From NCBI GenBank assembly GCA_001784115.1, contig MFPD01000014.1:20404-56508 (forward strand): 36,105 bases of DNA, read 5' to 3'. Origin of the DNA: Candidatus Levybacteria bacterium RIFCSPLOWO2_02_FULL_37_18 (GTDB lineage Bacteria; Patescibacteriota; Microgenomatia; Levybacterales; UBA12049). A program made the translations under genes and the position numbers. Within the stretch, counting starts at the first letter, position 1. Every line of letters starts with the position of its first letter. Shown one piece after another: positions 2,578 through 34,873 of this stretch. The notes under the pieces were generated by a model. It was not told where the DNA came from, searched no databases, and was given only the letters and a program-made list of their open reading frames with translations.

Positions 2578-2582
2578 AAAAA

Positions 2583-4197: not shown

Positions 4198-4203
4198 AGT
4201 TCT

Positions 4204-4267
4204 ATTGTGGTCACGTTTGAATAAGTTTGTCAAGCCCCTTGTAACACCCCCAGCACTATGCTACGCT
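4204..4267. promoter_or_regulatory. Divergent promoter pair
   Basis: Minus strand: TTGACA (4233-4228), 18 bp, CACAAT (4209-4204), then 6 nt to the GTG of the DUF5667 gene. Plus strand: TTGTAA (4239-4244), 17 bp, TACGCT (4262-4267), then 8 nt to the ATG at 4276. Both would yield leaderless mRNAs. Confidence 0.6.
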
Positions 4268-4275
4268 ATTCTTTT

Positions 4276-13997: not shown

Positions 13998-14019
13998 GAT
14001 GAACGGCAGATTAACAAGA

Positions 14020-15150
14020 CTATTGTAATCCTCCGATGACTTTTACGCGGTTAAGTAAATCTTGATCTTCCAAAACTTTTCCCGTACCTTTTGCAACAGT
14101 TGTTAAGGGATCCGAAGCGTGAACTACCGGCATCCGGGTTCTTTCGACAACTAAATGATCAAATCCTGGTAGTAAACTTCCTCCTCCGGTAAGCAATATC
14201 CCGTGTTCTAAAATATCGTTGGTTAATTCAGGTGGCGATTCCTCCAAAACACCAGCTACTTCTTCGATAATTCTTGTGATTACAGGTGATAGTGCTTCCC
14301 TAACTTCTATTTCCGTGATTCGCAAACTTTTTGGTAACCCGGTTTCTATATCCCTTCCCCTGACAATTGCCATTTTCTCCCTTCCTTCAACTTCTATTTT
14401 AACATTTTCTTCGCTCTCTTTTGCTTTTTCGGTTAACTTTTCACTTTTAAATTTTAACTTTGAACTTTTCTTATACGCGCTTCCTATCTTAATTTTCAAA
14501 TTCTCAATTGTTGCATCTCCCAATAATATTCCATGCCGAAGTCGAATGTAATGTCCTAATGCCTGATCCATATTATCTCCTCCCAACCGTAAAGACCGAG
14601 ATACTACAATCCCGCCTAATGAAATGACAGCGATTTCCGTTGTTCCACCGCCAATGTCTACTACCATGCTTCCTGTTGGCTTAAAAATCGAAATCCCCTC
14701 TCCAATTGCCGCAGCCATCGGCTCTTCGATTAAAAATGCTTTCCTGGCTCCCGCGGTTAAGGCTGCTTCCCATACGGCTCGTCTTTCTACTTCGGTAACA
14801 GACGAAGGAATCGCAACCACAACTTTTGGCCGGGCAAAAGAAACAGGTACTGGCGTGCCGACTTTATGAACGTCGGACAGGAGATACGAAAGAAGTACAA
14901 CCGTTGCGTCAAAATCAGAAATTATTCCGCCTTTTAAAGGCTTGATGGTAATAATATTTGCCGGAGTTTTACCCACCATTTTTTTTGCTTCCGTGCCAAA
15001 CGCGACGACTTTTTTGGTTTTTTTATGCAGTGCGATAACCGATGGCTCTCTGGCAACAATCCCTTTTCCTTTTACAAAAACCAATGTATTGGCAGTACCC
15101 AAATCTATACCAATATCATGACTAAACAAACTAAAAAAATGGTCAAACAT
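14020..15150 (-). CDS. mreB: Rod-shape actin homologue MreB
   Basis: A 376-residue bacterial actin that guides wall synthesis. It starts DIGIDLGTANTLVFVKGKG (phosphate 1), with VEEPMA-like LIEEPMAAAIGEG, phosphate 2 in MVVDIGGGTTEIAVISLGG, and adenosine motif HGILLTGGGSLLPGFD. Most MreB are about 335-345 residues. The extra length lies after IKIGSAY, where KSSKLKFKSEKLTEKAKES and following residues precede VRGRD. This insert is partly encoded by an AAGTTCAAAG-type repeat (14426-14470). Promoter TTGGAA-17-TAAAAT-6-ATG is upstream (15157-15185). The gene is separated from mreC by the RAYT element. Confidence 0.97.
   Translation of the reverse strand: MFDHFFSLFSHDIGIDLGTANTLVFVKGKGIVAREPSVIALHKKTKKVVAFGTEAKKMVGKTPANIITIKPLKGGIISDFDATVVLLSYLLSDVHKVGTPVPVSFARPKVVVAIPSSVTEVERRAVWEAALTAGARKAFLIEEPMAAAIGEGISIFKPTGSMVVDIGGGTTEIAVISLGGIVVSRSLRLGGDNMDQALGHYIRLRHGILLGDATIENLKIKIGSAYKKSSKLKFKSEKLTEKAKESEENVKIEVEGREKMAIVRGRDIETGLPKSLRITEIEVREALSPVITRIIEEVAGVLEESPPELTNDILEHGILLTGGGSLLPGFDHLVVERTRMPVVHASDPLTTVAKGTGKVLEDQDLLNRVKVIGGLQ
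14426..14470 (-). repeat. AAGTTCAAAG-type repeat inside mreB
   Basis: On the minus strand, AAAAGTTCAAAGTTAAAATT continues as TAAAAGTGAAAAGTTAA. It encodes KSSKLKFKSEKL in frame. Pbp2 carries a very similar block at 10507-10562 (KSSKLKVKSSKL). Confidence 0.6.
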
Positions 15151-15349: not shown

Positions 15350-17875
15350 ATGCCGGAAATAATTAATAAAATTTGTAGCTTTGTAATCGAATACTCTTTT
15401 TATCTTCTCTTTTTTCTCGTCCCATTAGTTTTTACCAGCAACACTTCGGAATTATTCGAATTTAACAAAATGTGGGTTACCTTTGGCATTACTACTATTA
15501 TTGTTGCCGCGTGGACAGTACAAATGATTGTTTCCAAAAGATTTTTTATCCAAAAAACTCCGTTGGATATTCCTATACTATTATTTTTAGCCTCTCAATT
15601 TTTTGCCACACTTTTTTCCTGGGACAGGCATGTTTCGATTTGGGGATACTACTCAAGGTTTAACGGTGGCTTCCTGTCAACATTATCCTACATCACATTA
15701 TATTATGCCTTTGTTACTTTCCTTCCGAGGAATAAGAAAATTGAACATAAAGGCACACCGTTTATTCTCAGAATCTCTCTTTTCATTGGCGCAGTTTTAT
15801 TAATCATTGCTGGAACTTATTTATCGACTGCTTTCCCCAATCACCAGGCAGAAGAAAACGCAGTATTGTTTTTTATTTTTATACTCATCTCGTTTTTTCT
15901 TTTTATATTTTCTCAATCAGGCGGATTTTTAAAACGGCTCCTTATTATTAATCTAGTCAGCGGATTAGTCGTTGCCCTGTGGGGACTTCCGTCACATTTT
16001 GGCTTTGACCCAACGTGTCTTTTGTTTCGGGGAACTTTTGATGTTTCGTGCTGGAACGAAGCGTTCCAGCCAAAAATCAGAATCTTTTCTACCCTCGGTC
16101 AACCCAATTGGCTGGCAGCATACCTCTCTGTTTTGATTCCAATTGCTTTAGCATTCGGACTCAAAACAATAAATTTGAATACCAAAGCACGAAATACGAA
16201 ACAAAACCAAAATTCAAATAATCAAAACTCAAAACGTTTGGAACATTCGAATTTTGGAACTTCGAATTTGTTTCGGATTTCGAATTTCGGATTTCTTATT
16301 TTAACTGTTTTATTCTATATTGACGTAATTTTCACCGATGCGCGCTCAGGATTTATTGGTTTATTGGCAGGACTCGCTGTCTTTTCTGCAGGCATTGTCT
16401 TTGTATTAAGAGGTGAACTGAAAAAATATGTCTTTTCCTTCATTACTATCGCACTGATATTTTTAATTGCCACATTTTTCTTTGGCTCGCCCATTATGTC
16501 TATCCGAAAATTTACGTATCCGGTATTGAAATTGAACTGGGAAAAAAAGGATTCTGGACCGCGCCAAACGCGGCTGACGCAACCTGAAAAACCACAAGGA
16601 CCCGCTTTGGAAACCGGCGGTACAGAATCCGGATCTATCCGGTTAAATGTTTGGCGTGGAGCACTAGACGCTTGGAAAGATAATCCGCTTTTTGGCACCG
16701 GAGTAGAAACATTTGCCTTTGCGTATTATAAATACCGGCCTCAAGCGCATAACCTTACGTCCGAATGGGATTATTTATACAACAAAGCCCACAATGAATA
16801 TTTAAACTATCTTGCAACTACCGGGTTATTGGGGCTTGGAACATATGTAGGAATGATTGGAATGTTCCTTTGGATTGTTTTTAAAACATTGATTGAAAAC
16901 CGTCATCCTGAATTCATTTCCGGATCTTCTCCTAATGAGATTCCGAAAAAAGTTCGGAATGACACTGTTTTAGCTTTAGCCTTGCTAAGTGGATATATTT
17001 CAATTCTTGTTAGTAATTTCTTCGGTTTCTCTGTCGTCATCATCAACCTCTACCTTTTCCTCATTCCTGCAATTGTTTTTGGCCTTTTGAACATATTTTA
17101 CGAAAAGGAAAATGAACAAAATAATGTATTACGTAGCAAGTATCATGTATCAAGTATACAGTGGGTAGGAATTGCATTAATACTACTTACTGCATACTAC
17201 ATACTAAATACTCTATACTTGTTCTGGCTGGCTGATACCGCGTACGCATTAGGATCTAATTTAAACAAAACCGGAAGTTACGACAGGGCGTATATTCGTC
17301 TTCGGCAAGCTGTTGCTACTCGCCCGAGTGAGCCGACATTTAAAGATGAACTAAGCATTAACGAAGCAATTTTGGCAATTAAATTTGCCAAAGAAAAAGA
17401 AGTCAAAACAGCTACCCAGCTTGTCCAGGACTCCATGGAATTAAGTAACCAGTTAAACACCGATTACCCGAATAACATCGTATTTTTAAAAACCAGAGTC
17501 AGAGTTTTTTCTCAACTGGCTCAGGTGAATGAACAATATTTGCAAATTGCCCTCGATGCTTTAATAAAAGCCAAAGAACTTGCACCAACTGACGCAAAAA
17601 TTGCTTACAATCTAGGAGTAATATTTGGAGAACTCGGCAATAAAGACAATACAATTTACGAACTGAAACGAGCAACAGAGCTCCGTCCTAATTATCTTGA
17701 TTCCTATTATGCCTTAGGTTTGTTTTACCACCAACTTTCTCTTGATAAAAATGGGAAAATTGAAAATCAGCAGTATTTTGACAAAGGAGTTAAGCAAATG
17801 AGATATATAATTTCCCATTTCTCAAATTCCGACTCAGCCAAAACAGCTCTTAAAACATGGGACGTAGAACTCTAG
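15350..17875 (+). CDS. O-antigen ligase/polymerase-like membrane protein with C-terminal TPRs
   Basis: An 841-residue protein. The first 590 or so residues are polytopic (10-12 hydrophobic helices) with the Wzy/WaaL signature WLAAYLSVLIPIAL, TDARSGFIGLLAG, GTGVETFAFAYYKYRPQ and NKAHNEYLNYLATTGLLGLG. The last 200 residues carry TPR motifs (DAKIAYNLGVIFGELGNKDN and DSYYALGLFYHQL). Such proteins polymerise or attach glycan to lipid or protein on the outer face of the membrane. Three stretches are repeat-derived and in frame: about residues 274-316 (family A), 518-538 (family B, HPEFISGSSPNEIPKKVRND) and around 597-624 (SKYHVSSIQ and following). A family A repeat lies directly upstream. The promoter is unclear. 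Confidence 0.9.
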   Translation: MPEIINKICSFVIEYSFYLLFFLVPLVFTSNTSELFEFNKMWVTFGITTIIVAAWTVQMIVSKRFFIQKTPLDIPILLFLASQFFATLFSWDRHVSIWGYYSRFNGGFLSTLSYITLYYAFVTFLPRNKKIEHKGTPFILRISLFIGAVLLIIAGTYLSTAFPNHQAEENAVLFFIFILISFFLFIFSQSGGFLKRLLIINLVSGLVVALWGLPSHFGFDPTCLLFRGTFDVSCWNEAFQPKIRIFSTLGQPNWLAAYLSVLIPIALAFGLKTINLNTKARNTKQNQNSNNQNSKRLEHSNFGTSNLFRISNFGFLILTVLFYIDVIFTDARSGFIGLLAGLAVFSAGIVFVLRGELKKYVFSFITIALIFLIATFFFGSPIMSIRKFTYPVLKLNWEKKDSGPRQTRLTQPEKPQGPALETGGTESGSIRLNVWRGALDAWKDNPLFGTGVETFAFAYYKYRPQAHNLTSEWDYLYNKAHNEYLNYLATTGLLGLGTYVGMIGMFLWIVFKTLIENRHPEFISGSSPNEIPKKVRNDTVLALALLSGYISILVSNFFGFSVVIINLYLFLIPAIVFGLLNIFYEKENEQNNVLRSKYHVSSIQWVGIALILLTAYYILNTLYLFWLADTAYALGSNLNKTGSYDRAYIRLRQAVATRPSEPTFKDELSINEAILAIKFAKEKEVKTATQLVQDSMELSNQLNTDYPNNIVFLKTRVRVFSQLAQVNEQYLQIALDALIKAKELAPTDAKIAYNLGVIFGELGNKDNTIYELKRATELRPNYLDSYYALGLFYHQLSLDKNGKIENQQYFDKGVKQMRYIISHFSNSDSAKTALKTWDVEL
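16171..16295 (+). repeat. Family A repeat, in frame inside the ligase/TPR gene
   Basis: It begins near AATTTGAATACCAAAGCACG, contains AAACGTTTGGAACATTCGAA, and ends TTTCGAATTTCGGATTTC. Middle and right end match the 16S V1 copy closely. It is translated as a polar Asn/Ser/Lys/Arg segment (starting NTKARNTKQNQNSNNQNSKR) between two hydrophobic helices. Confidence 0.85.
16902..16963 (+). repeat. Family B repeat, in frame inside the ligase/TPR gene
   Basis: GTCATCCTGAATTC at one end and GTTCGGAATGAC at the other, with CTAATGAGATTCCGAA inside (as in 11980-12043). It encodes HPEFISGSSPNEIPKKVRND in a loop between membrane segments. Confidence 0.8.
17143..17222 (+). repeat. AAGTAT-type repeats inside the ligase/TPR gene
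   Basis: GCAAGTATCATGTATCAAGT followed by ATACAGT, and then TGCATACTACATACTAAATA further on. These are inverted-like blocks resembling the repeat in the methyltransferase gene. The reading frame stays open (SKYHVSSIQ ... AYYILNTLY). Confidence 0.45.
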
Positions 17876-22888: not shown

Positions 22889-23713
22889 ATGAATCTAAAA
22901 AAAATCCTCGCGTTTATATATACCAATTATCTATTATCACTATTTGCGTTAATACTTGTTTTTGTTGGAATTGCCATTCTTTTTAAAGTTATTTTATTTA
23001 AACCTGTCTACCTTTATGCAAAAATAAAAGTAGGAGATTACTTGACTGGAGAATCAGTAGTAAAACCTAAATTATGGTTAGCTTTTGCATTAAAAAAGGG
23101 AGATGTAGAAAAACCTCTTATAGGAAAGCCTACAGCAGAACTATTAGGCTTTACTTACTATCCTTTAGAAAAAGGCAAAGGGCTCGATATCTATCTAAAT
23201 GTCAAGCTCAAAACAAGTTTAAACAAACAAATTCATAAATACAGTTTTAAACGATCTACTATAGCCATAGGATCACCAATTGATATAGAGTTTACCTCAA
23301 CTCAAATAACAGGAACCATAATAGGCTTGAGTGAAAAAGAATTTAAAGAAACATATGTTGATAAAATTATATATTTAGTATTTCAAGGTGGATATGGCAA
23401 AGATCACCCATATCGTTACGACAATATAAAAACTGGTGAGAAATATTATGATGGTCAAAACTACGTTTTTGAAGTACTAGATAAACAGCTACAAAAAAAC
23501 ATATGGTCTGTAGTTAACAATTTAAATGCTCAGATATATGAACGCGAAGTAGAAACTACCCAGGATATAATAGTTAAGGCAAAAATAAAAGCAAAAAAAA
23601 TTAATGATCAGCTGTTCTATGGTGAAGAATACCCTATATATGTAAACGCGCATATACCCTTTTTAACCTCCAATTTTACTTTTGAAAATTTTGTTATTAG
23701 AAAAATTGAATAG
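22889..23713 (+). CDS. Membrane-anchored protein of unknown function in the glycan locus
   Basis: A 274-residue protein with one N-terminal transmembrane helix (LLSLFALILVFVGIAILFKV) and a large outer domain of mainly beta character. Notable stretches are YAKIKVGDYLTGESVVKPKL, IGSPIDIEFTSTQITGTIIG and DGQNYVFEVLD. I do not recognise the family; the plan is reminiscent of DUF4330-type proteins often found with polysaccharide genes. Its last 51 bp overlap the 3' end of the convergent WecG/TagA gene. It is divergent from the sugar transferase. Confidence 0.75.
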   Translation: MNLKKILAFIYTNYLLSLFALILVFVGIAILFKVILFKPVYLYAKIKVGDYLTGESVVKPKLWLAFALKKGDVEKPLIGKPTAELLGFTYYPLEKGKGLDIYLNVKLKTSLNKQIHKYSFKRSTIAIGSPIDIEFTSTQITGTIIGLSEKEFKETYVDKIIYLVFQGGYGKDHPYRYDNIKTGEKYYDGQNYVFEVLDKQLQKNIWSVVNNLNAQIYEREVETTQDIIVKAKIKAKKINDQLFYGEEYPIYVNAHIPFLTSNFTFENFVIRKIE

Positions 23714-24478
23714 CATTAAAAATTTTTGATAAAATATTAAAACAACAAAAAGCGTGCCATATAACATATATCTCTTCCATAATCTTCCAGGCTCACACAT
23801 GAGTCTGAATAACCATTCCAATCCTTTATTTTGCATCCATTGAGGCGCTTGACGTTTTACTTTGGAAATAAAATCGAAAGCAGCACCAACTGGAATTATA
23901 ACTTTAGTTTTTTTAAAGCTAGGTTCTTGATATAACATTTTGTAAGTAAAAAACTCCTGACGTGGACTACCCAATCCTACAAAAACAATATCTGTCTTAG
24001 TTCTATCGAGATAATCAACAATTTCCTTCTGCTCGTTTTTATTCAATTCGGTAGATCTCGTATAAAGCCTTCCAACTATTTTAATCTTAGGAAATAAATC
24101 TGTTAAATTATTTTCCAGCTTTTGCAGGGTTTCTTTTGACGATCCATAAAGAAAGATTCTATAACTTCTTTTCTCTGCCAACCTACATACATCAAGCATT
24201 AATTGAGGACCATATACTCTATCTTTTAGTAAAACTCCATATAGAAAAAATAAAGACCATCTAACCCATTGACCATCAGGAGCTATATAATCAAATTTAT
24301 TCAAAACCTCCCTTAGTTTTTTATTCAACAGGGCAACGACTAAAGTCTGAGAAGCTATTGGTGATACCAGAAAGTTTTTTTTTGTCCTGATGCTTTTCTC
24401 TAAGTTAGCTAAAATAAACTCATAATCACAAGCTGAAACATAACTATTTAGTATCTTGTATTTGCCTAAAAATATCAT
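23663..24478 (-). CDS. WecG/TagA/CpsF family glycosyltransferase (GT26)
   Basis: A 271-residue enzyme that adds a (N-acetyl)mannosamine-type sugar to lipid-linked GlcNAc in teichoic acid or related glycans. The signature is FDYIAPDGQWVRW, KDRVYGPQLML, RIFLYGSSKETL, DIVFVGLGSPRQEFFTYKM and VGAAFDFISKVKRQAPQWMQ, then GLEWLFRLMCEPGRLWKRY. The C-terminal FVVLIFYQKFLMLF may be a membrane segment. A longer frame starts at 24526 but overlaps the preceding ligase gene; ATG at 24478 (MIFLGKYK) has AGAGAAAAG upstream. It is translated just downstream of the ligase gene. Confidence 0.93.
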   Translation of the reverse strand: MIFLGKYKILNSYVSACDYEFILANLEKSIRTKKNFLVSPIASQTLVVALLNKKLREVLNKFDYIAPDGQWVRWSLFFLYGVLLKDRVYGPQLMLDVCRLAEKRSYRIFLYGSSKETLQKLENNLTDLFPKIKIVGRLYTRSTELNKNEQKEIVDYLDRTKTDIVFVGLGSPRQEFFTYKMLYQEPSFKKTKVIIPVGAAFDFISKVKRQAPQWMQNKGLEWLFRLMCEPGRLWKRYMLYGTLFVVLIFYQKFLMLFNFSNNKIFKSKIGG

Positions 24479-24489
24479 AGCACTTTTCT

Positions 24490-25761
24490 CTACATAGTTT
24501 TGTAAACTAAACCCCTTAAAAGCCAAAATAAACCCAGGTAAGAAAATGTATATTGTGGGTTAATAAAAGAAAATAAAAATATAAGCCAAAAACATATGAT
24601 TATAGACAAATTCATTGTTAACTTTTTTTTTATAAATTTTATATCTGATTTTAAAAAATACCCAATTAAAATAAGCTGCGATAACAAGCCCAAAAATCCT
24701 GTCTCTGCTAAGGTACCTGATAAAATATTATGTGGATGCATGGCTGATATTTCTGATAGTTTCTGACGCCAATCATTATATAGTTTTTTAGGTCTATCTG
24801 AAAAAGACAAGTTATCATAAAAGTTGCCCAAGCCCACGCCTAAAATTGGAGAGGATAAGACCATCTCAAATGAAATTTCACTCCACCATAACCTACTTTT
24901 TATAGAATGAACATCTTCTTTAGTCGACAGCATAAATCTATCTACTAAATTAGACCCTAAAAAGCTATTTGAAGCTATGTAGCCTACATACAGAAAGAAT
25001 ATTATAAAAACTAACTGAAATAAAGAAGCTTTAACTTTACGCAAAAAAAGAACATGGCATGAAATAAAAGCCAAAAATACAATTAACAATTGACCTCTAA
25101 AATTAGATAAAAATGAATTAAAAGAAATCAACCCTATTGCCAGAAAAAAAAATATTCTAACTAGATTTCTTTTATAACTGTAAAAGTAATAAAACAGTAA
25201 TGGAATCAATCCCGCATCATAAACATCAGAAAAGAATCTATGCCTCTTAATGTTTATTTCCATCATTTCTAAATATTTATCATATAGAATATATTTTGAG
25301 AAAGAAAGGAAAAACTCAGGGAAAAAATAAACTATAATATTATAAAGAATTCCGATGATTATAGTTACAAGCAAGACTCTAATAACCATATTAATTTTTT
25401 CAGAAGAATCTAGAATAATCATCGAGAGAATAAAAATCAATATGCCTGCGATAACATCTTTATAAATTAAAATAAAACTACTTATATTAACGGCAGACAA
25501 AATAGAAATGCTTTGTGTAAAAAAGAAAAATGATAACATCATAGCTAACTTACGATCTATCTTGAAAAATAGCTTTTTTTCGTACAACAGCCATCCTGTA
25601 AACACAAACAACAATATTAACAAAAATCTGGCCAAGCTATGAGAAGTAACTAACGCATTCCTAACTGGTAATAGATAAAATGGTGGAAGACGCAAGCCCA
25701 AGACAACTAGACAAAAAATGATAAAATTGATTTTCTGCTGGGTTTTATATATATTCTTCAT
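24490..25761 (-). CDS. O-antigen ligase/polymerase family membrane protein
   Basis: A 423-residue protein with 10-12 transmembrane helices. The Wzy/WaaL signature is SPILGVGLGNFYDNLSF and, after a long outer loop, MHPHNILSGTLAETGFLGLL (the His-containing catalytic region). It would polymerise or ligate lipid-linked glycan on the outer face. It lies directly upstream of the WecG-type gene, so they probably share an mRNA. Its start codon touches the start of the divergent GT2 gene (CATATG). Confidence 0.9.
   Translation of the reverse strand: MKNIYKTQQKINFIIFCLVVLGLRLPPFYLLPVRNALVTSHSLARFLLILLFVFTGWLLYEKKLFFKIDRKLAMMLSFFFFTQSISILSAVNISSFILIYKDVIAGILIFILSMIILDSSEKINMVIRVLLVTIIIGILYNIIVYFFPEFFLSFSKYILYDKYLEMMEINIKRHRFFSDVYDAGLIPLLFYYFYSYKRNLVRIFFFLAIGLISFNSFLSNFRGQLLIVFLAFISCHVLFLRKVKASLFQLVFIIFFLYVGYIASNSFLGSNLVDRFMLSTKEDVHSIKSRLWWSEISFEMVLSSPILGVGLGNFYDNLSFSDRPKKLYNDWRQKLSEISAMHPHNILSGTLAETGFLGLLSQLILIGYFLKSDIKFIKKKLTMNLSIIICFWLIFLFSFINPQYTFSYLGLFWLLRGLVYKTM
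25727..25755 (+). promoter_or_regulatory. Promoter of the GT2 gene inside the divergent ligase gene
   Basis: TTGATT (25727-25732), 17 bp, TATATT (25750-25755), then 6 nt to the ATG at 25762. It lies wholly within the 5' coding part of the divergent ligase gene. Confidence 0.6.
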
Positions 25762-26664
25762 ATGAAATGTGATATTTCTTTTATCATACCAGTTTTAAAT
25801 GAGGAAGAAAAAATAGGAAAATTACTTAATAAAATACACCAAGCTTCTTCAGATTACAACACAGAAATAATTGTTATAGATTCCGGATCTACGGATAGTA
25901 CAGCTAAAATTGTAAAACTGTACCAAAGAAAAATTTCCAATTTACACCTTATATCCAAAAACAAGACTGACTTTAACAGATCAAAAACACGAAATTTGGC
26001 AATCAGAAAAGCTAAAAGTAAGCTTATCTGCCTCTGTACTGGGCATGCGATACCTACTAATAATAACTTCATAAAATACTTTTTAGATGATTTTAAACTT
26101 AATAATAAAGTTGTTGCTGTATTTACAGAAGACATACTTTCCCAATATACTCCTATTATTCCCAGAATAGAAGTAATGTGCAAAATGGAACGACTTAACA
26201 AGTACTGCAACAGAAATGGCGTGCTTCTGCAAACACTTAAAGCTCCATTTATTGATTATAACGAAAACAATAAATTTCTATGGTATTTTATGTCTAATAT
26301 ATTTACCTGTTATAAAAAATCATTTCTACTTAAATACCCTTTTCCTAATACAGAATACGGAGAAGATGCCCTGCTGGGTAAAATACTAATAGAAAAAGGT
26401 TATGCTAAAGTCTATGACAGACGTTGCGCCACCATACATTACCATAAATTTAGCCTTCTACAGTACTACCAAAGAGAAAAAGAGGACCTAAAGCTAAGAA
26501 TATCAAAGCTTAAAGTAAAAAATAGAGTTAATATTTCTGCAAAAATAGCAAAATTATTAAATATGAGAGTAAATCCTATCCAAAAAATCTATTTTCTATT
26601 ACAGTTACTCTTTTATTACAGCCTAAAACTTTTTATATTTGCCAGCTTATTCATTAAAAAATAA
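25762..26664 (+). CDS. Family 2 glycosyltransferase
   Basis: A 300-residue GT-A enzyme: ISFIIPVLNEEEKIGKLLNK, TEIIVIDSGSTDSTAKIV, DFNRSKTRNLAIRKAKSKLI. Where most GT2 enzymes have DxD, this one has CTGHAIP, a form seen in some rhamnosyl-type transferases. It also has YGEDALLGKIL (general acid/base region) and HYHKFSLLQYYQREKEDLKL. The hydrophobic C-terminus (LLQLLFYYSLKLFIFASLF) may anchor it. It is the only gene on the plus strand in this part of the locus and converges with the GT4 gene. Confidence 0.9.
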   Translation: MKCDISFIIPVLNEEEKIGKLLNKIHQASSDYNTEIIVIDSGSTDSTAKIVKLYQRKISNLHLISKNKTDFNRSKTRNLAIRKAKSKLICLCTGHAIPTNNNFIKYFLDDFKLNNKVVAVFTEDILSQYTPIIPRIEVMCKMERLNKYCNRNGVLLQTLKAPFIDYNENNKFLWYFMSNIFTCYKKSFLLKYPFPNTEYGEDALLGKILIEKGYAKVYDRRCATIHYHKFSLLQYYQREKEDLKLRISKLKVKNRVNISAKIAKLLNMRVNPIQKIYFLLQLLFYYSLKLFIFASLFIKK

Positions 26665-26670: not shown

Positions 26671-27837
26671 CTATTTTTCTATCACTAAACCTTCATAAAT
26701 CTTTAAAAGAGAATTGTAGTGCTTTTCTGCTGAATATTTACTTTCATATTCCATTCGGACTACTTTGTTTAATTTTTTGAAGAGGGCTTTATTATTCCAT
26801 ATGTGCAATATCTTTACTTGTAAATCTTCATCGTTATTATATTGAAAAAATAGACCTCCTTTTCCATTTTTAACTCTTTCTTTGAATACTCCAAAACTAG
26901 GCACTAAAACCGGAGTCCCGTTTGCAAAGGATTCCAACACAACCAATGGACCAACTTCATACCAAAGAGACGGAACAATTGCACACAAAGCACATCCCAT
27001 ATATTTAAATACTTGTTTAGAAGAAAGAAAATTCCTAATCAGAATATTTTTATATCTGCTATATTCAGCCACTTTCTCCTTTAATGGACCATCACCAATA
27101 ACCACTAGTTTAACTGTAGACAAACGGGAAAAAATCTCAAGAAGCTGCATTATCCCCTTTTCTTCAGAAAACCTACCAACAAACAAAAAATAATCTTTTT
27201 TTTGTTTGAAATTTATTAATTTATCATTGTCCCCTACAAAATGATTTATTACTGTAGTTTTGTCTAAAGATAATCCTAATTTTTTTATATAATAGTTTCT
27301 GGTAATCTTTGCTGGAAACACATACATATCTATTAAATTAAAGTCGCCCTTAACTGAATAAAAGAAAAAAGATAAAGTAAAAATAAAGGAAGCAATAAAA
27401 GAATTGTTATAATAATTACAAAATATTGACAATAAAGGCGTCTTCTTTGAACCGCAAATAGCACATATGTTGTTATTAAAAAAAAGACCTTTATGAGGAA
27501 ATCTGTAATTATGTATAGTCTGTACAGTTGGCACATTAAATTTTTTGCAAATTTTATAAATAGAAGGACTAATTAAGGGATAAATGTTATTTAAGTGAAC
27601 TACTTCTGGTTTAAACTGCAAAATAGTTTCAGAAAATTCATCCTCCACTTTTCTATTCCAAAACATTCCTCCCGCTGCTTTAGCTTTTTCTACTAAACTA
27701 TCAGAAATATCTTTGTTCTCTTTGGTAAAGAGTTTAACTTGATGACCTTTTCTCTTTAGAAGATCTGCCAAAGATAAAAAATAGACATCTTCTCCCCCTT
27801 TGTATTTATAAAAATTATGTACTAGAAGTATTTTCAT
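26671..27837 (-). CDS. Family 4 glycosyltransferase (GT-B fold)
   Basis: A 388-residue retaining glycosyltransferase. N-domain: KILLVHNFYKYKGGEDVYFL and PEVVHLNNIYPLISPSIYK. C-domain: YFLFVGRFSEEKGIMQLLEI, LVVIGDGPLKEKV and the E-x7-E motif in YEVGPLVVLESFANGTPVLV. A Cys cluster in the middle (CAICGSKKTPLLSIFCNYY) may bind zinc. The sugar donor is unknown. It follows the DUF4956 gene with a 56-bp gap on the same strand. Confidence 0.93.
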   Translation of the reverse strand: MKILLVHNFYKYKGGEDVYFLSLADLLKRKGHQVKLFTKENKDISDSLVEKAKAAGGMFWNRKVEDEFSETILQFKPEVVHLNNIYPLISPSIYKICKKFNVPTVQTIHNYRFPHKGLFFNNNICAICGSKKTPLLSIFCNYYNNSFIASFIFTLSFFFYSVKGDFNLIDMYVFPAKITRNYYIKKLGLSLDKTTVINHFVGDNDKLINFKQKKDYFLFVGRFSEEKGIMQLLEIFSRLSTVKLVVIGDGPLKEKVAEYSRYKNILIRNFLSSKQVFKYMGCALCAIVPSLWYEVGPLVVLESFANGTPVLVPSFGVFKERVKNGKGGLFFQYNNDEDLQVKILHIWNNKALFKKLNKVVRMEYESKYSAEKHYNSLLKIYEGLVIEK

Positions 27838-27893
27838 TAAGCATTTGTAAGTTATTATATACCAGAGGCGCTTACTTTAAAAAAGAAGCAATA

Positions 27894-28592
27894 TCAATAC
27901 TCTAAATTAAATTTAGATGGATTTATATTTAGTGCCTTAAGTCCATTATTTTTTTTGAGCCTGCTTACCATTTGATTTAAATCTGCTTGTTTTTTTAGTA
28001 TTAGTGACATTGTTAGCTCTGTTTGTTTTTCATCTTTAGTAGTTTGTATATTTAAAATATCTTGTTTAACAACATATTTTTCTAACGACTCGGAAACGTC
28101 AGACATACTAGTCTTTGAGCCCTCCAATATACACGCTAATATATAACTACTATCAGAAGATTGACCAAAGTTTACGATCTTTAATAAATAAACCATACCT
28201 GAAACAACTATAGTAGAAAGAAAAGCTGAGGGAATCTGGTCTACACCAATTATAAAACCGGTTGCCAAAACCCAGAGAACAAAAAACATATCTTTAGCAT
28301 CTTTTATGGCTGTTCTAAACCTAATAACAGAAAAAGCACCAAATAGCCCTATTGCCCGAGGAATACTATTGGAAATAAAAATTATAATTAATGCAATAAC
28401 AGGTAAAATCAAAACTAGACTATTTACGAAGGAATGTGAATAAGAAACAGACCTACTTGTTTTTTTGTAAACATAGGCAATCAATAATCCTAATATGAAT
28501 GCAAATAATAATGAATAAAAAATATTTATGAAATAACTTAACTTGGAACCAAAATAAGTTAAAGGCATCTGGAAAAAACTATCTATATTCAT
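27894..28592 (-). CDS. DUF4956 membrane protein (partner of VTC-domain protein)
   Basis: A 232-residue protein with four to five transmembrane helices in the first 140 residues (FAFILGLLIAYVYKK, SLVLILPVIALIIIFISNS, VLWVLATGFIIGVDQIPSA, FLSTIVVSGMVYLLKIVNFG) and the hallmark GLFGAFSVIRFRTAIKDAKD. The C-terminal half is soluble, an ACT-like alpha/beta domain by appearance. DUF4956 genes regularly sit beside VTC polyphosphate polymerase and CotH genes, as here (12 bp from the VTC gene). It is a plausible membrane channel or anchor for polyphosphate; that role is inference. Confidence 0.9.
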   Translation of the reverse strand: MNIDSFFQMPLTYFGSKLSYFINIFYSLLFAFILGLLIAYVYKKTSRSVSYSHSFVNSLVLILPVIALIIIFISNSIPRAIGLFGAFSVIRFRTAIKDAKDMFFVLWVLATGFIIGVDQIPSAFLSTIVVSGMVYLLKIVNFGQSSDSSYILACILEGSKTSMSDVSESLEKYVVKQDILNIQTTKDEKQTELTMSLILKKQADLNQMVSRLKKNNGLKALNINPSKFNLEY

Positions 28593-28603
28593 GTTTGTTT
28601 ATT

Positions 28604-29308
28604 TTACATGTGTTCTACAAGGTTATCAATAGCAGCAGTATATTTAGAAAAAGCAGTCCTGTTAAAACTGTACAGTTTAATCATATCTCCCAACCAACTT
28701 GGCAGTAGACCATTGAACTTAATTTCCAAAAGAGTCAAAGGAAGAAAAGAAAATAAATTCCCGTGAATCATTTTATTTCTTAGGTGCATTACTCCAATAT
28801 CGTAGTCAATAGTTATTCTTAGATTTTTATTTATGGCCGAAACAAAAGGTTTTCTTTTATAAACAACTTGCGCCATAGGATGCAACTTCATGCTAAAGTA
28901 ATCATTAATGAGTTCACTGCGTAAAGCATTATCCACTATTTTATTAAGAATATTTTTTTTAACTTCCATGTCGTTATTTAAAGAACTTAGATTTAACTTA
29001 CTGCTTAATAAAGCCCTATCTTTATAAACAATATCTCCTTTCTTTCTTTTAATCTCAAAAAAATAATATCTTGGATCATTGTTATAATACCTAATTCTGT
29101 ATTTTTTTCTAGTAAAAACTCCTGCCAGTTTTTGATGATAGCAGTGCAAATCAGGAGAATCAAAATAGACACTATTAACAGTATAATAATTTCTATCTTT
29201 TATATATTTATCCAAAGACATGTGGAACGAAATAAATGGAATTACTATTTCTAGCATGTCAGCTGGCAAAAAATATTTAAACTCTATTCTTCTAGAATGA
29301 AACTGCAT
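28604..29308 (-). CDS. VTC-domain (polyphosphate polymerase-like) protein
   Basis: A 234-residue tunnel enzyme of the triphosphate tunnel/VTC type, expected to build polyphosphate from nucleotide triphosphate. The conserved charged pairs of the Vtc4 tunnel can be followed: RIEFKYFL, YDSPDL-like VYFDSPDLHCYHQK, RKKYRIRYY, YFFEIKRKKGDIVYKDRALL, VVYKRKPFV, LRITIDYDI, LLEIKFNG (metal Glu and Lys) and FSKYTAAID. No SPX domain or membrane segment is present, so it would work at the inner membrane face with DUF4956. Its start is 4 bp before the previous stop on the same strand (29308 against 29313). Confidence 0.92.
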   Translation of the reverse strand: MQFHSRRIEFKYFLPADMLEIVIPFISFHMSLDKYIKDRNYYTVNSVYFDSPDLHCYHQKLAGVFTRKKYRIRYYNNDPRYYFFEIKRKKGDIVYKDRALLSSKLNLSSLNNDMEVKKNILNKIVDNALRSELINDYFSMKLHPMAQVVYKRKPFVSAINKNLRITIDYDIGVMHLRNKMIHGNLFSFLPLTLLEIKFNGLLPSWLGDMIKLYSFNRTAFSKYTAAIDNLVEHM

Positions 29309-29312
29309 ATTT

Positions 29313-31130
29313 TTAATGTCTATTATTATACCTTAGCTTATCTATCAATGTATAATCAGATAACCCTATACTGGAAAAATCATTTTTTTCATTTAAATAA
29401 ACAGGATTTGCATTGACAAAAAAAGTATTGTCTAGCGACCAATTCTTATTTCTGAAAAAGTCCAAATTGAAGTCTCTAATAATATTAGTAGTTATATCTT
29501 CCCTTTTATCATCAGCAGATAATAATGAATAATAAATATTTATACTTGAGTTATCAGATGATTTCCTGTTAGGAAAAGTGTTTGTTACAACTGAGTTTTT
29601 CCCATTTTGAAAAAAAATAGAATTATTTACAACTATTTTTCCTCCTTCAAAAAAAGGCTTTTTTATATAAACATTTAATACTTCTTTATTTTTAAAAAAT
29701 ACACTGTTTGAAATATAAGCTTCTGAAGAATCTTTAGAAGCTATACCAATATTACATTCCTCAAGAAAATTATTAGAAATATCTATTCTGCTGCCCTCGC
29801 CTACGCTTATACATTTATCTTTAGACCTGAATATATAATTATTTTTTATAATTGTTGTACTACCCGAAAGATCAATTCCATCTTCGTTATTCTCTATAAA
29901 AGTATTACCTATTATTTCTCCGGACATGAAATCTTCGTCAATAGAATCAGCATGATTTCTATAAAAGTAAGAGTCATATACAGAAGCATTAGAATACTTA
30001 AGGTTTACTGCATCATCTCCATGAGCAAATGTAAACGAGGAATTTTTAATAATTACATCATTATTATGATACGCGCTAAACATACCGCTAAAAAAAATAC
30101 CATTAATGTAAGCGTCTTTCCCATTATCGATATTAAAGTATTCAAAGGTACTTCCTGATGCTCCTTCATTGGCTAAGGCAAATACACCAAACGACTTATC
30201 TAGCTTATCTACTTTTACCCTGATTGGCATTTCTTTTGTACCATCAGCAATTACTTTCGAATAAGATACAAAAGAAACTCCCGGTGCCAAAATTAAAGTC
30301 GTACCTGGTTCAATAATAAGCGGAGAATTTTTAGGAATGATTAAGGTCTGGGTAATCTTGTATTTTCCCCTTCCCAAAACTAAACTTTTCTTTTCTTCGT
30401 TGTATTTAAAAAACTTGTGCCCCTTTAAAAATTCATCAAGCGGTTGATTGATTAAATCTAAATCTCTGAGCAGTTCTTGATTAATATAGCGAAAAGAATA
30501 TGTTGCCTTATTATTTAAATCATATAAATTTTCAATAGTTACTTTTGGTTCTTTAGCAAAATTTATAAATTTATTGACAGGCGCTCTATCTTCTGAAACT
30601 ATAAAATAATTATATGATTCCTCTGGGAGATCCATGAAGTAACTAATCTTTTCATATTTACCTGTTACATTGCTTATCATTAAATTTTTGTCTACCTCAA
30701 AACCTACATAATCTTTATTATCTTTTGTCCAAGATTCATACGCTATTCCAAGTAGAATATCTTCTTTATCGAAAATTTGATTTTTGTTTGCATCAACATA
30801 CAGTTTTAATTTGGCCATTTTAACTTCCTGGTTTTTATAAAATTTAATCTTTATTAATCTAATTCCAATATTACGAGGAAATTGGGCATTCTTAATTTCG
30901 ACAAGTTTTTTTGCCATACCCTGAACAATCATTTCCAGACTCACAATTTTACCTTTATCTCTTGCAGTCATCAAAAGTCTCACTGGAGAATACTCCTCGG
31001 CTTCACCAATTTTAGGCGATCTAATCCTATAAAATGAAATGGCAGCTAATATTAATAAACAGGTTAAAAAAAACAAAGCAAGGCCAGCTATTTTTTTTAC
31101 ACCAACTAATGTTTTTCTTTGACGCTTCAT
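29313..31130 (-). CDS. Membrane-anchored right-handed parallel beta-helix protein
   Basis: A 605-residue protein. An N-terminal anchor (KIAGLALFFLTCLLILAAIS) is followed by a beta domain (about 50-250) and then a long beta-helix (about 260-540). Helix coils include PLIIEPGTTLILAPGVSFVS, GIFFSGMFSAYHNNDVIIKN, DSYFYRNHADSIDEDFMSGE, NNEDGIDLSGSTTIIKNNYI and SNSVFFKNKEV. The right-handed helix with repeated HADSIDED and NEDGIDL Asp-rich turns resembles carbohydrate-active or glycan-binding proteins. No catalytic assignment is possible. Its start overlaps the CotH fusion stop by 4 bp (ATGA type), so translation is coupled. Confidence 0.88.
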   Translation of the reverse strand: MKRQRKTLVGVKKIAGLALFFLTCLLILAAISFYRIRSPKIGEAEEYSPVRLLMTARDKGKIVSLEMIVQGMAKKLVEIKNAQFPRNIGIRLIKIKFYKNQEVKMAKLKLYVDANKNQIFDKEDILLGIAYESWTKDNKDYVGFEVDKNLMISNVTGKYEKISYFMDLPEESYNYFIVSEDRAPVNKFINFAKEPKVTIENLYDLNNKATYSFRYINQELLRDLDLINQPLDEFLKGHKFFKYNEEKKSLVLGRGKYKITQTLIIPKNSPLIIEPGTTLILAPGVSFVSYSKVIADGTKEMPIRVKVDKLDKSFGVFALANEGASGSTFEYFNIDNGKDAYINGIFFSGMFSAYHNNDVIIKNSSFTFAHGDDAVNLKYSNASVYDSYFYRNHADSIDEDFMSGEIIGNTFIENNEDGIDLSGSTTIIKNNYIFRSKDKCISVGEGSRIDISNNFLEECNIGIASKDSSEAYISNSVFFKNKEVLNVYIKKPFFEGGKIVVNNSIFFQNGKNSVVTNTFPNRKSSDNSSINIYYSLLSADDKREDITTNIIRDFNLDFFRNKNWSLDNTFFVNANPVYLNEKNDFSSIGLSDYTLIDKLRYNNRH

Positions 31131-33475
31131 AACTTCACAACTTTAACCCCGCCTGTAACATTGTTTTTGAATACTATCTCGTTCACACAGGACATCAGAT
31201 TAGAATCGAGGATAAAATTATATGTGGTCTTCTCTAAAGAGTAATAAGAGTCATAAACTTTATCTACTTGAATATAATTTGACCAAAAAACAGGAAGGTC
31301 CTCAACATTATATATTTTAAAGTTAGAATATTCTTCAAGGTCACCACCTAAATTATTGTTATAAGTCAATTGTCCTTTATTTAAACATGGAAATTTCAAG
31401 ATGGAATAATCGCTTTCGCTCTTAATCGTTACTTTTAAAATCCTTCCTTCTTTGGTAGCCTGTATTTCTCCTTCTGATAGTATTTCCTTGAGATAATTAG
31501 CGTTATTAACTATTGTCTTTCTTATGTTTCCAACTATTTTATGATATTGAGTATTAGAATGTACTTTTTGTAAATCTGCCTCAATAAACTCATTAACTTC
31601 TGATACGATTTTATCGTAATAAGCTAAATCGTCTACAATATGGTTACTATTCAAATAATTCCATAATAAAATATTTCTTTTATGCCTGATTTTCTTGCTC
31701 ATTAAAAGAGCTCTAGAAAAAATATTGTTTATAGGGGTAATTGAGTCTCTCTCTTTGTATTTATTTATTTCAACATCCCATGGTATTAATTCAAACTTAC
31801 CCTTGGTATTATTAAAGTATAGCCTTAAATTCTCGTAGTCATTTTGATGATGGTCTTTTGAGAGTACTGAATGGATATGCCAACTATAAAAACTATCCTC
31901 ATCTAGTATATCAAATATCTTTTGTTCTATCTCTATAGCCCTGTAATTTTTGAGTAAGTTAAACGTATAATCCAAAAAAGCGAAGTTTGACTGAAGATGA
32001 GGATCTTTAGTGTTTTTTTCCCAAAAATTCATATTTGCTGTAATCGTTTCAAACCAAGATATATCTATATTATTGTTAATGGTAGTAAGAAAATCAGAAT
32101 CAGAGATTCTTTGTTTAGTTTCTAGATATTTCTTATCCCAGTCTTCGATTTGGTAGTAAACTCCGGCAAAATCGTTATTAACAAATAGCAAAACAAATCG
32201 AGTATCTGGTGGCAAAAGACCAAGCTTTCTTGCTCTGTAATTATGGAATGCATCTGCGAAATAATATCTATCCGAGGAGATAAAAAGTTTTAATTTATTG
32301 GTGCCATAAAATGAATCTTCCTGGGTAAATCTTATTACCCATGATTTTTGTGGATATCTCCAGTGATTAGCAAAATCACCTCTATAGCGGACATTAACAT
32401 CATATACCTTATTCTGGTAAATAAATGTGGCATTAACATATTTTTTGCTGCTTTCTGACATTGGTTGCTTATTAAACCAGTCATCATTTTTATCAGGAGA
32501 TACGTAGGGCAAATTTTCGTCAAGCTTTTTTCTGTTTTTCTTATCAACTAATAGTTGATAAACTGGTAAATTAGTTTTTTTTATAAGCGGAGAGTTTATC
32601 TGTATTTTTGTTTTGTAGTTATGAAGTTCTACCGGCTCTTCAACTACTTTATCCTTAAAAACTTTTACATACGAAAATATTAATCTGCCAGAAACAGGAT
32701 CAGAAGTCATAGGAAAACCATTAATAATTCGCGTGATATTTCTTTTATCTGTACTTTTTGCATAGCTGTATCCATCTCCGGCCCAGATAAAAGCATTAGG
32801 TGGCAAAAGGGGTTCGATCTCGCGGTTCCATTTATTAAAATCATAAATTTGATTTGTCTTGGAAATGTCTGTAGAAATATGCTCAAGCCACAAAGGATGA
32901 TGAGTAAAAATAAATACATTTTTATACTGTTTTGAATTCTGTAAGGCATTCTTGAAATAATTTACTTGTCCCTTATCTACCTCATAACCTCCCATAATTA
33001 CTCTACCGTTCTCTCCTGTTTTTATTTTTTTATAATCCTCATTGGTTGTACTTAAAGTAACAAAAAGATTGTTCTGTTTAACAAAACTAAAATATAATTT
33101 ATTAAACCTTTTTATAAACAAATTTCTAGAATTACTACTTCCTACATCATGATTTCCTGGAACAAAGTAATAAGGAATTTTTGTAACTTTAAGTTTTTCT
33201 TCTAATAAATCCCATTCCTGCAGAGTACCATTTTTAACCATATCTCCTGTAAAAATAATAAAATCTGGCTTAAGATCTACTATTTTTTCAAGAGCAAGAT
33301 CAAACCCATCTGTATTTATCTGCGGATATATATGCCCAAGAACTACAAAAGATAACTCAGGACTTGAGTTTTTTTTAGAGATAAACGTTCTATTTGCAAA
33401 AAGCACTAAAGAAAAAGAAAGGGAAAAAGATATCAGAAGAATTAAAACAATCGTGGATCGATATTTTAACATCAT
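31127..33475 (-). CDS. Metallophosphoesterase-CotH kinase fusion protein
   Basis: A 782-residue protein with an N-terminal signal/anchor (STIVLILLISFSLSFSLVLF). The calcineurin-like domain (about 40-280) has PDFIIFTGDMVKNGT, YYFVPGNHDVG and IFTHHPLW. The usual first D-x-H is LGHIYPQ and the last GHxH is WAGDGYSYA, so two metal-ligand motifs are altered. The CotH-type atypical kinase domain (about 300-620) has VNVRYRGDFANHWRYPQKSW, LKLFISSDRYYFADA, LFVNNDFAGVYYQIEDWDKK, LSKDHHQNDYENLRLYF and FELIPWDVEINK (catalytic Asp residues). CotH kinases phosphorylate secreted or surface proteins. A beta-rich C-terminus follows. It is the first gene of a four-gene operon. Confidence 0.88.
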   Translation of the reverse strand: MMLKYRSTIVLILLISFSLSFSLVLFANRTFISKKNSSPELSFVVLGHIYPQINTDGFDLALEKIVDLKPDFIIFTGDMVKNGTLQEWDLLEEKLKVTKIPYYFVPGNHDVGSSNSRNLFIKRFNKLYFSFVKQNNLFVTLSTTNEDYKKIKTGENGRVIMGGYEVDKGQVNYFKNALQNSKQYKNVFIFTHHPLWLEHISTDISKTNQIYDFNKWNREIEPLLPPNAFIWAGDGYSYAKSTDKRNITRIINGFPMTSDPVSGRLIFSYVKVFKDKVVEEPVELHNYKTKIQINSPLIKKTNLPVYQLLVDKKNRKKLDENLPYVSPDKNDDWFNKQPMSESSKKYVNATFIYQNKVYDVNVRYRGDFANHWRYPQKSWVIRFTQEDSFYGTNKLKLFISSDRYYFADAFHNYRARKLGLLPPDTRFVLLFVNNDFAGVYYQIEDWDKKYLETKQRISDSDFLTTINNNIDISWFETITANMNFWEKNTKDPHLQSNFAFLDYTFNLLKNYRAIEIEQKIFDILDEDSFYSWHIHSVLSKDHHQNDYENLRLYFNNTKGKFELIPWDVEINKYKERDSITPINNIFSRALLMSKKIRHKRNILLWNYLNSNHIVDDLAYYDKIVSEVNEFIEADLQKVHSNTQYHKIVGNIRKTIVNNANYLKEILSEGEIQATKEGRILKVTIKSESDYSILKFPCLNKGQLTYNNNLGGDLEEYSNFKIYNVEDLPVFWSNYIQVDKVYDSYYSLEKTTYNFILDSNLMSCVNEIVFKNNVTGGVKVVKL

Positions 33476-33655: not shown

Positions 33656-34864
33656 TCAAATTAATCCTGTCAATAACCAGAAAATAAAAAATACTGTTGG
33701 CAGTTGCCAGTCAAAATCAACTAAAGCATTAAGGGCTGAGGATAAAAGACTCAACCACAGCATTAAAAAGAAAAATCTCTCGTTTGCTTCCAATTGTTCA
33801 AACACTCTTTTTCCACCTTCCCACAGGGCTGAAATAATAAGCATTATGCTCATAACAAAACCAAAAATCCCTGTATCAGAAAGCATTTGAAAGAAAAAAT
33901 TATGGACATAAAATGTTTTAGCTAATCCCAAACCGCTATTAAAATTAATTAACTTATAAGTATCTAAGCCTGTTCCGGCAAAAGGAACCAATCTGGCGCT
34001 CTCCACTGCCGACTTTATATACATAAGCCTAGCGGAAATATTTAAATCATAAATTGCAGACTCCAACTGTACCATTCCTTGCCTTGATAAGATAGACCAT
34101 ACTACAATAGCTACAACTAAAATCCAGAAAACAAATATAAAATTGATCTTTTGTCTTGATCTATATGAATACCCCAAAAAAAACAAGTAGCTCATAATAG
34201 AAAGTGAGATTAAGGATGCTTGAGCCGATGTTAAAATTAAAGAATATAGCAAAAATATAAAAATTAGAGAAAAAATAATTCTATAACCTAACTTATCCCA
34301 ATTAGTTTTCAAAACAAAAAGACACAAAGGGATGGCAAAAATAAGTAAGGCGGACAGATGGTTGTGGCCAAAATAGATCCACATAAAACTCACTCCTCTT
34401 GATAGCTTGCTTGAATAATGCAAAATAAGCGTATTGTATAAAGAGATGGTGGAAAGAACTACTGTTACAAAAATAAGAACTCCAGCCAAGCGTTCTTTTT
34501 TTTGCAAAGTGTTGAACACGGAACCACTCGTAACATAGATTACAAAATAGGAAAAAAACAATAATAACTGAACGTAACTTGTTTGAAGATTGGTGGAAAA
34601 AATAGTAGAGATGAACGAAACTGTGAGGAAAATCAAAAATATTTTGATTATTCTGTCATTGCGAGGAGCTTGCGACGAGGCAATCTCATGAGACTGCTTC
34701 GCTCCGCTCGCAGTGACAAGGCGACGCAATGCCAACGGCAATAAATACACCGCATACGCAAATACAATGTATCTTACCCATATACTATCCTGCTGCGGAA
34801 AAAACGGAAGATTTATTAAAGTAATAAACGTAATAATCTCGTAAAAAGACATAGATATATACAT
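33656..34864 (-). CDS. O-antigen ligase/polymerase family membrane protein
   Basis: About 402 residues with roughly 10 transmembrane helices. The Wzy/WaaL pattern is VPFAGTGLDTYKLINFN and, later, KTFYVHNFFFQMLSDTGIFG (catalytic-type His). Near residue 50 the segment RRLVTASGAKQSHEIASSQA then PRNDR is a translated family B repeat (34655-34717) between two helices. TTGTAA-17-TATGAT (34874-34869) overlaps the ATG at 34873, so the next ATG (34864) is preferred; 34852 is also possible. With the two others it makes three ligase/polymerase-type proteins in the window. Confidence 0.88.
   Translation of the reverse strand: MYISMSFYEIITFITLINLPFFPQQDSIWVRYIVFAYAVYLLPLALRRLVTASGAKQSHEIASSQAPRNDRIIKIFLIFLTVSFISTIFSTNLQTSYVQLLLFFSYFVIYVTSGSVFNTLQKKERLAGVLIFVTVVLSTISLYNTLILHYSSKLSRGVSFMWIYFGHNHLSALLIFAIPLCLFVLKTNWDKLGYRIIFSLIFIFLLYSLILTSAQASLISLSIMSYLFFLGYSYRSRQKINFIFVFWILVVAIVVWSILSRQGMVQLESAIYDLNISARLMYIKSAVESARLVPFAGTGLDTYKLINFNSGLGLAKTFYVHNFFFQMLSDTGIFGFVMSIMLIISALWEGGKRVFEQLEANERFFFLMLWLSLLSSALNALVDFDWQLPTVFFIFWLLTGLI
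34655..34717. repeat. Family B repeat, in frame inside the ligase gene
   Basis: GTCATTGCGAG (34655-34665) and CTCGCAGTGAC (34707-34717) flank GCAATCTC/GAGACTGC arms. The minus-strand translation VTASGAKQSHEIASSQAPRN is typical of this repeat in this reading frame. Confidence 0.88.
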
Positions 34865-34873
34865 ATCTATCAT

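Follow-up and report, generated by a model that had tools for sequence, protein, structure and literature searches.

The window analysed here is a 36,105-nucleotide stretch from the genome of Candidatus Levybacteria bacterium RIFCSPLOWO2_02_FULL_37_18 (1.11 Mb, 96.5% complete), which belongs to the Patescibacteria, a phylum of tiny, mostly host-dependent bacteria. It contains four contiguous minus-strand open reading frames (ORFs) at 27894–33475. They encode a fusion of a metallophosphoesterase-like (MPE-like) domain with a CotH domain, an anchored beta-helix protein, a VTC-family protein and a DUF4956 membrane protein (Table 1). The MPE-CotH and beta-helix genes overlap by 4 bp, and gaps of 4 bp and 11 bp separate the beta-helix gene from the VTC gene and the VTC gene from the DUF4956 gene. 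An earlier inspection of the letters alone (the sequence-only reading) had described four tightly packed genes and a CotH domain fused to a phosphoesterase-like domain. The first claim is confirmed by these coordinates, and the second by the two Pfam matches lying within one ORF of 782 amino acids (aa). The interval given by that reading, 26671–33475, does cover the four genes, but its start takes in a fifth gene for a GT4 glycosyltransferase, which is not a core member.

Table 1. Features of the four-gene set and its surroundings (positions in the window)
Feature	Position	Strand	Evidence
MPE-CotH fusion, 782 aa: N-terminal transmembrane segment, MPE-like domain, CotH domain, C-terminal beta tail	31127–33475	minus	Pfam
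MPE-like domain, aa 43–270 of the fusion	32666–33349	minus	Pfam Metallophos 5.8e-13 at aa 56–196
CotH domain, aa 343–672 of the fusion	31460–32449	minus	Pfam CotH 1.3e-21 at aa 362–672
Beta-helix protein, 605 aa, anchored	29313–31130	minus	Pfam Beta_helix 3e-7, NosD 3.9e-7
Conserved region including the beta-helix, aa 172–509	29604–30617	minus	19-sequence alignment
VTC-family triphosphate tunnel enzyme, 234 aa	28604–29308	minus	Pfam VTC 5.2e-39
DUF4956 membrane protein, 232 aa	27894–28592	minus	Pfam 1.7e-13
GT4 glycosyltransferase	26671–27837	minus	Pfam Glycos_transf_1 2.4e-25
Wzy_C proteins (three)	24490–25761; 33656–34873; 15350–17875		
WecG/TagA transferase	23663–24526		
GT2	25762–26664		

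Co-occurrence was examined across 380 Patescibacteria genomes. Each of the three families, VTC, DUF4956 and CotH, is present in 28 genomes, and their pairwise overlaps are 26, 24 and 26 genomes versus 2.06 expected (hypergeometric p from 6e-30 to 1e-35, a statistic that ignores relatedness). All three occur together in 24 genomes. The 26 genomes with both VTC and DUF4956 (module genomes) span 22 genera, and G221, a class-mate of the window genome, also carries the module. The VTC and DUF4956 genes are direct neighbours in 22 of the 26 and at most 4 kb apart in all of them. CotH is found within 2.6 kb of VTC in 21 module genomes, and in one more (G170) a divergent CotH-helix gene adjoins the pair. 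The remaining four have a Cthe_2159-type beta-helix gene beside it (domain confirmed on one cluster representative), so either CotH or Cthe_2159 adjoins VTC-DUF4956 in 26 of 26. The sequence-only reading had proposed a survey of this kind, and the opposite of rare neighbourhood was found. The four genes are a real, recurrent and conserved module and not a chance cluster. In a gene-dense genome, unrelated envelope genes may also become neighbours by chance, and in favour of this stands the CotH fusion, which is unique to the window genome within its family (0 of 36 sampled genomes). Such chance adjacency is refuted, however, by the phylum-wide co-occurrence and adjacency, by the existence of CotH-helix gene fusions, and by the equivalent set in Firmicutes and at two published loci, and can be practically dismissed.

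Firmicutes loci (n = 80) were picked by the similarity of their DUF4956 to that of Patescibacteria, with a closer subset of the alignment as query. The third gene is Cthe_2159 in 50 of them and CotH in 18. The module is thus shared by Patescibacteria and Firmicutes, and it is not Pel-specific. The CotH-polymerase-DUF4956 arrangement has been stated not to occur outside Pel loci (PMC12345266). Contrary to this statement it does exist without Pel, because PelG was found above the cut-off in none of the 26 module genomes. No relative was found in a search for loci related to the whole MPE-CotH protein, and the closest VTC (44% identity) and DUF4956 (55%) relatives are both in G066, outside the class. 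This patchy distribution suggests transfer or repeated loss, since the fusion is absent from the window's own family and the nearest VTC and DUF4956 relatives lie outside its class.

Cthe_2159 (PF14262) is a carbohydrate-binding, polysaccharide-lyase-like beta-helix (PMC6712302 and references in it). In Firmicutes, and in four genomes of Patescibacteria, it is the third member of the VTC-DUF4956 set, and is alike in this position to the CotH-linked beta-helix, but the two differ in having no detectable homology. As candidate homologue of the window beta-helix it was rejected (no Pfam match, hhalign probability 0.6%). The Patescibacteria sets in which it replaces CotH (L049, L053, L054, and L045 at a contig edge) resemble those of Firmicutes, and L049, L053 and L054 also have a PGA_cap-cluster gene, of a capsule synthesis family, nearby. 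Beside many VTC-DUF4956-Cthe_2159 sets of Firmicutes (e.g. L084, L102, L108) stands a pair of divergent genes, one of about 425 aa and one of about 225 aa, whose sizes hint at a possible two-component system.

A CotH-VTC-DUF4956 set beside Gram-positive pel operons (pelDEADAFG) was already known, with mutant phenotypes. Genes for CotH, polyphosphate polymerase, DUF4956 and DUF4832 have been reported there (PMC7112168). In Streptococcus intermedius (SIR_1592–1594), deletion of the DUF4956 gene raises Pel and deletion of the cotH-like gene lowers it, and each deletion cuts aggregation by more than half (10% ASM; PMC12345266). The window's set is alike in having the three families beside a polysaccharide locus. 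It differs in the lack of Pel (no PelG above the cut-off in the 26 module genomes), in an extra beta-helix and an MPE-like domain, and in a CotH with His at a catalytic position. The NELoc-2 locus of Clostridium perfringens (CP4_0460–0465, PMC2879425) likewise combines VTC-domain proteins with CotH, and its membrane proteins of 222–226 aa annotated as 'tubulin/FtsZ' would correspond to DUF4956 in place and size. NELoc-2 differs by a duplicated VTC pair and by having no beta-helix described, and it is known from annotation only.

The VTC profile (PF09359) matches the window protein with 134.6 bits (gathering threshold 23), and all 22 relatives match as well. Their alignment contains 18 invariant residues, and the catalytic residues are invariant across these divergent proteins. 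When the profile of the 22 relatives was compared with solved structures, yeast Vtc4 was the best match (PDB 3g3q, E = 4.5e-27). The tunnel residues of Vtc4, which we take to be K200, R264, R266, K281, K294, Y359, R361, R373, E426, S457 and K458, align in 3g3q with K11, R71, R73, K87, K96, Y150, R152, R164, E195, S221 and K222 of the window VTC, and most of them are invariant in the family. The charged tunnel had been called intact by the sequence-only reading, and all 11 positions are indeed kept. No transmembrane segment was predicted in the window VTC. Among the 26 module genomes PPK1 was found in none, and PPK2 only as one marginal fragment; VTC would thus be the one polyphosphate polymerase that can be recognised in them. 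The window VTC is probably a cytosolic polyphosphate polymerase, judging from homology and active-site conservation, and the module would offer polyphosphate synthesis to genomes without PPK.

The VTC might instead hydrolyse tripolyphosphate or nucleoside triphosphates, with the rest of the cluster serving ordinary wall decoration. The triphosphate tunnel metalloenzyme (TTM) fold supports several activities, and an acidic patch of four Glu separates the TTM polyphosphatases from the polymerases (PMC4641920). Three patch positions could be assigned in the window VTC; Glu9 resembles the polyphosphatases at one of them, but the other two are basic as in Vtc4 (Arg7 and Lys197) and not acidic. Lys197, at the position after the metal Glu, presumably equals Vtc4 Lys428. 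With Vtc4 also the best structural relative of the profile, a hydrolytic VTC appears very unlikely.

The window DUF4956 protein scored 51.1 bits versus 30.6 with its profile (PF16316). It is predicted to have four transmembrane helices and a cytoplasmic C-terminal ACT-like domain (AlphaFold2 model, predicted local distance difference test score 80.5). The family has a conserved loop, G-A-x-x-x-(I/V)-R-F-R, and its invariant residues are G85, R91, F92, R93, G112 and G116. Thirteen of 24 relatives match MgtC (PF02308) at E ≤ 0.01 (best 1.6e-5), and alignment to one MgtC by hhalign gave E = 0.0022 at a probability of 13%. The C-terminal domain resembles the MgtC C-terminal structures 7qa5 and 2lqj, a fold match of the C-terminal part only. 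A comparison of the DUF4956 profile with PDB sequences found nothing. DUF4956 appears MgtC-like, and the link stays of moderate strength because the search of the window's class for a better MgtC profile gave two proteins only. Consistently, the S. intermedius homologue SIR_1592 has been independently described as an MgtC transmembrane domain with an ACT domain (PMC12345266).

The yeast VTC complex (Vtc1/3/4), in which the polymerase is coupled to a basic channel (PMC9911596), offers an analogy. Both systems pair a tunnel enzyme of Vtc4 type, whose catalytic residues are retained, with a membrane protein that has a conserved basic motif. In contrast, the VTC of the module has no SPX domain, and its transmembrane partner is a separate MgtC-like protein, for which the tests made showed no homology to Vtc1; translocation here would be by analogy. 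DUF4956 as a basic passage for polyphosphate is plausible in this comparison. VTC and DUF4956 could also form a membrane sensor of ATP or phosphate, which adjusts polysaccharide export by protein contact and makes polyphosphate as a by-product or not at all. The MgtC similarity and the ACT-like tail fit such a sensor, and so do the opposite Pel effects of the DUF4956 and CotH deletions in S. intermedius, where no polymerase-deletion phenotype was described (PMC12345266). However, catalytic residues invariant across 22 divergent proteins are unexpected for a pure sensor, and VTC stays when the extracellular partner switches from CotH to Cthe_2159. A sensing role of this kind is therefore considered rather unlikely.

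The CotH domain of the window fusion scored 77.9 bits against a gathering threshold of 23.8, and the protein has a transmembrane anchor at about aa 12–30. The AlphaFold2 model of the MPE domain was poor and only the CotH half of the fusion model was used. This half matches Bacillus cereus CotH 5jda with E = 3.1e-19 (TM-score 0.81 by target length), and from the model the CotH fold is regarded as certain. Bacillus CotH needs Asp228 and Asp251 for its activity, and the D228Q mutation abolishes it (PMC7821199). Their spacing of 23 residues identifies them, in the B. cereus sequence of the alignment, as the Asp residues of the motifs NFDGF and PWDYD. The window domain has His543 at the Asp228 position (Gln544 if counted without the gap) and keeps the metal-binding Asp at the Asp251 position as Asp567 (PWD, in PWDVE); it also retains the KS lysine and one conserved Glu. 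His at the Asp228 position is found in nearly all of the helix-linked CotH lineage of Patescibacteria (exceptions are one Gln and one other residue). Asp is found there in Firmicutes CotH and in the CotH of L037, L056, L060, L176 and L177–L181. Monophyly of the His-type clade is indicated in the tree but not established, with support of only 0.13 at its deepest node. Compared with the Bacillus spore-coat CotH (5jd9/5jda; PMC7821199), the window protein has a common fold and keeps several core residues, the PWD Asp among them, but it has the His replacement of its lineage, a fusion to an MPE-like domain (to a beta-helix in relatives) and a membrane anchor.

In a secretory-kinase model, which follows from the kinase idea of the sequence-only reading and is also found in the pel literature (PMC7112168), CotH is an active kinase: using ATP or polyphosphate, it would regulate glycan output by phosphorylating either the beta-helix or a polysaccharide synthase. 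The certain fold and the retained PWD Asp, KS lysine and Glu agree with this, and D-type CotH also accompanies VTC-DUF4956 in the Patescibacteria L037, L056 and L060 and in Firmicutes. Canonical protein-kinase activity of the window CotH is nevertheless doubtful, because the Asp228 position is a lineage-conserved His and D228Q is inactive in Bacillus (PMC7821199). Consistently, the CotH domains of 18 fused relatives (29% overall identity) have only three invariant columns, G, N and Y, none of them catalytic, versus 20 in the attached beta-helix. An active secretory kinase is thus improbable here, and the phosphorylation chemistry assumed before becomes questionable. Two relatives have unusual architectures. 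A 1545-aa protein of Peregrinibacteria (L064:3517-8154), encoded beside VTC and DUF4956, has three Ig-like N_BRCA1_IG domains before CotH and the beta-helix, and a fused 1196-aa protein (L050:9455-13045) has a second partial CotH-like stretch (aa 605–802) between the two.

The beta-helix protein begins with a transmembrane segment (aa 14–32), followed by a Ca-loop-like segment (DANKNQIFDKED) with an Ig-like region and then the right-handed beta-helix. Eighteen proteins from other Patescibacteria (Peregrinibacteria, Magasanikbacteria, Peribacteria and others) carry CotH followed by a homologue of this helix in one polypeptide, and single-sequence phmmer matches between the window protein and the fused ones reach down to 1.7e-61. 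The window protein from aa 92 matches L038 from aa 472, so that the match includes the stretch that links CotH to the helix in the fusions. The most economical explanation is a split of a formerly fused CotH-helix gene in the window lineage. The tree places the window among the fused relatives with a modest support of 0.77. The fusion and the beta-helix had both been thought unusual; this holds for the fusion of MPE with CotH, but the helix is usually fused to CotH (the 18 proteins) or replaced by Cthe_2159.

D373, D395, D398, D400, D417, D420, D438, K439, E445, K466, D467, K490 and K491 are invariant in the 19 aligned sequences. In the beta-helix part of the fused proteins (34% overall identity), 13 of the 20 invariant columns are charged (8 Asp, 4 Lys, 1 Glu). 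The conserved residues mostly follow a 22-residue register (D373-D395-D417-K439; N376-D398-D420-S442; K378-D400-S422-G444-K466; E445-D467) and should therefore stack on one face of the helix. The invariant charged columns look like a binding or catalytic face and not like a passive kinase substrate, the role that had been proposed for this protein and which fits poorly with such conservation. Weak similarity to endopolygalacturonase and rhamnogalacturonase was found in the PDB (E 0.06–0.4), and 3 of 19 members have a weak Pfam GH28 match (best 3.2e-4).

The MPE-like domain has exchanged metal motifs. Of the motifs of calcineurin-like metallophosphoesterases, GHxY replaces DxH of motif I in the window and GDG replaces GHxH of motif V, while GD, GNHD and the His of motif IV are kept. 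A three-way alignment with the MPE proteins of L059 and L186 shows GHxY for DxH and GD for GHxH in all three. Fusion of the domain to CotH is found only in the window, but its closest relatives found adjoin CotH-family genes in two other genomes. The L059 gene stands beside a CotH-helix gene, between it and VTC, and the L186 gene is directly upstream of a His-type CotH at a second locus of G274. The matches of the class, from 42 other genomes, are mostly ordinary phosphoesterases without the GHxY/GD pattern. Judging from these motifs and neighbours, the domain belongs to a small subfamily that is linked to CotH and has altered metal motifs; it may be either a binding domain or an enzyme whose metal site has been rebuilt from exchanged ligands. 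The second CotH locus just mentioned (L186, G274:C7:109500-115000, 1862-4589) belongs to a module genome, its MPE is of the GHxY/GDxG subfamily, and no VTC was seen in the 5.5 kb read. A very long membrane ORF (1238-aa open frame; L158, G530:C1:117260-117970) also ends in a phosphoesterase-like domain with degenerate motifs (GNFD, SGD).

What is new here is thus the module without Pel, the split gene for a helix usually fused to CotH, the His-type CotH and the MPE-like subfamily linked to CotH. A tentative reading, to which we give somewhat less than an even chance, is that polyphosphate is made inside the cell, is probably threaded outward, and serves a CotH/beta-helix assembly that modifies surface polysaccharide, presumably that of the adjacent glycan locus. 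The cytosolic VTC would make polyphosphate from ATP, an activity that is likely. The four-helix, MgtC-like DUF4956 would couple this synthesis to passage of the anionic chain across the membrane, with the RFR loop as basic passage and the ACT-like tail as sensor, which is plausible. We infer both activities, and likewise the extracellular steps. Outside, the anchored CotH-fold protein and the beta-helix, usually one polypeptide and here two, may bind nascent polysaccharide. Chemistry on glycans or cations would fall to the helix, through its invariant face of acidic residues and lysines; the His-type CotH would bind or transfer phosphate non-canonically or be a scaffold. The phosphoesterase-like domain, N-terminal to CotH and outside the membrane, may bind or trim phosphate groups. 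The outcome would be a phosphate-dependent tuning of the amount or adhesion of surface polysaccharide. Besides the co-occurrence and the CotH-helix fusions, the Pel and aggregation changes in the DUF4956 and cotH-like deletions of S. intermedius (PMC12345266) speak for this reading. The sequence-only reading had suggested a membrane machine that makes polyphosphate or phosphorylates surface molecules. Its machine survives as a conserved unit of glycan loci with a Vtc4-like VTC, but its active protein kinase is doubtful.

Several observations weigh against the tentative reading given above. The window VTC has Ala where Vtc4 has Lys455, and keeps Glu9 at an acidic-patch-like position of the polyphosphatases. 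The CotH relatives of L040, L059 and L064 are without the Asp251-position residue as well. The importance of polyphosphate is not demonstrated, because the polyphosphate-polymerase deletion of S. intermedius still aggregated, with no phenotype described (PMC12345266). No assayed bacterial VTC-DUF4956 pair was found in the literature searched.

Extracellular kinase-like proteins need a phosphate donor, and the source for envelope CotH-type proteins is not settled in the literature searched. Since the conserved set brings a CotH-type protein together with both a polyphosphate polymerase and a membrane protein, the hypothesis of an exported donor can be put to the test. As a long shot, the His-type CotH/beta-helix pair could be a new extracytoplasmic enzyme, for which VTC-made, DUF4956-exported polyphosphate is the phosphoryl donor to surface polysaccharide. 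If true, this would solve phosphorylation outside the cell without ATP. With the lineage in which His replaces Asp and the invariant residues are those of the beta-helix, the focus moves away from kinase signalling and towards a beta-helix that acts on glycan or phosphate.

The surroundings of the four genes had been called a glycan locus. This label is right, as genes for three Wzy_C proteins, a WecG/TagA transferase and a GT2 are found nearby. The GT4 gene is co-directional with the four-gene set and lies 56 bp downstream of it; in relatives, GT4 genes often adjoin the module, but not always. Other glycan genes beside the relatives' modules encode epimerase-like, DegT, UGD and methyltransferase proteins. 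A promoter and terminator scan gave nothing beyond the level of shuffles. An ordinary rod-shape operon is also found near the glycan locus, where a single run of minus-strand genes encodes MreB, MreC and a penicillin-binding protein of class B (window 12411–15150 and 10147–11967).

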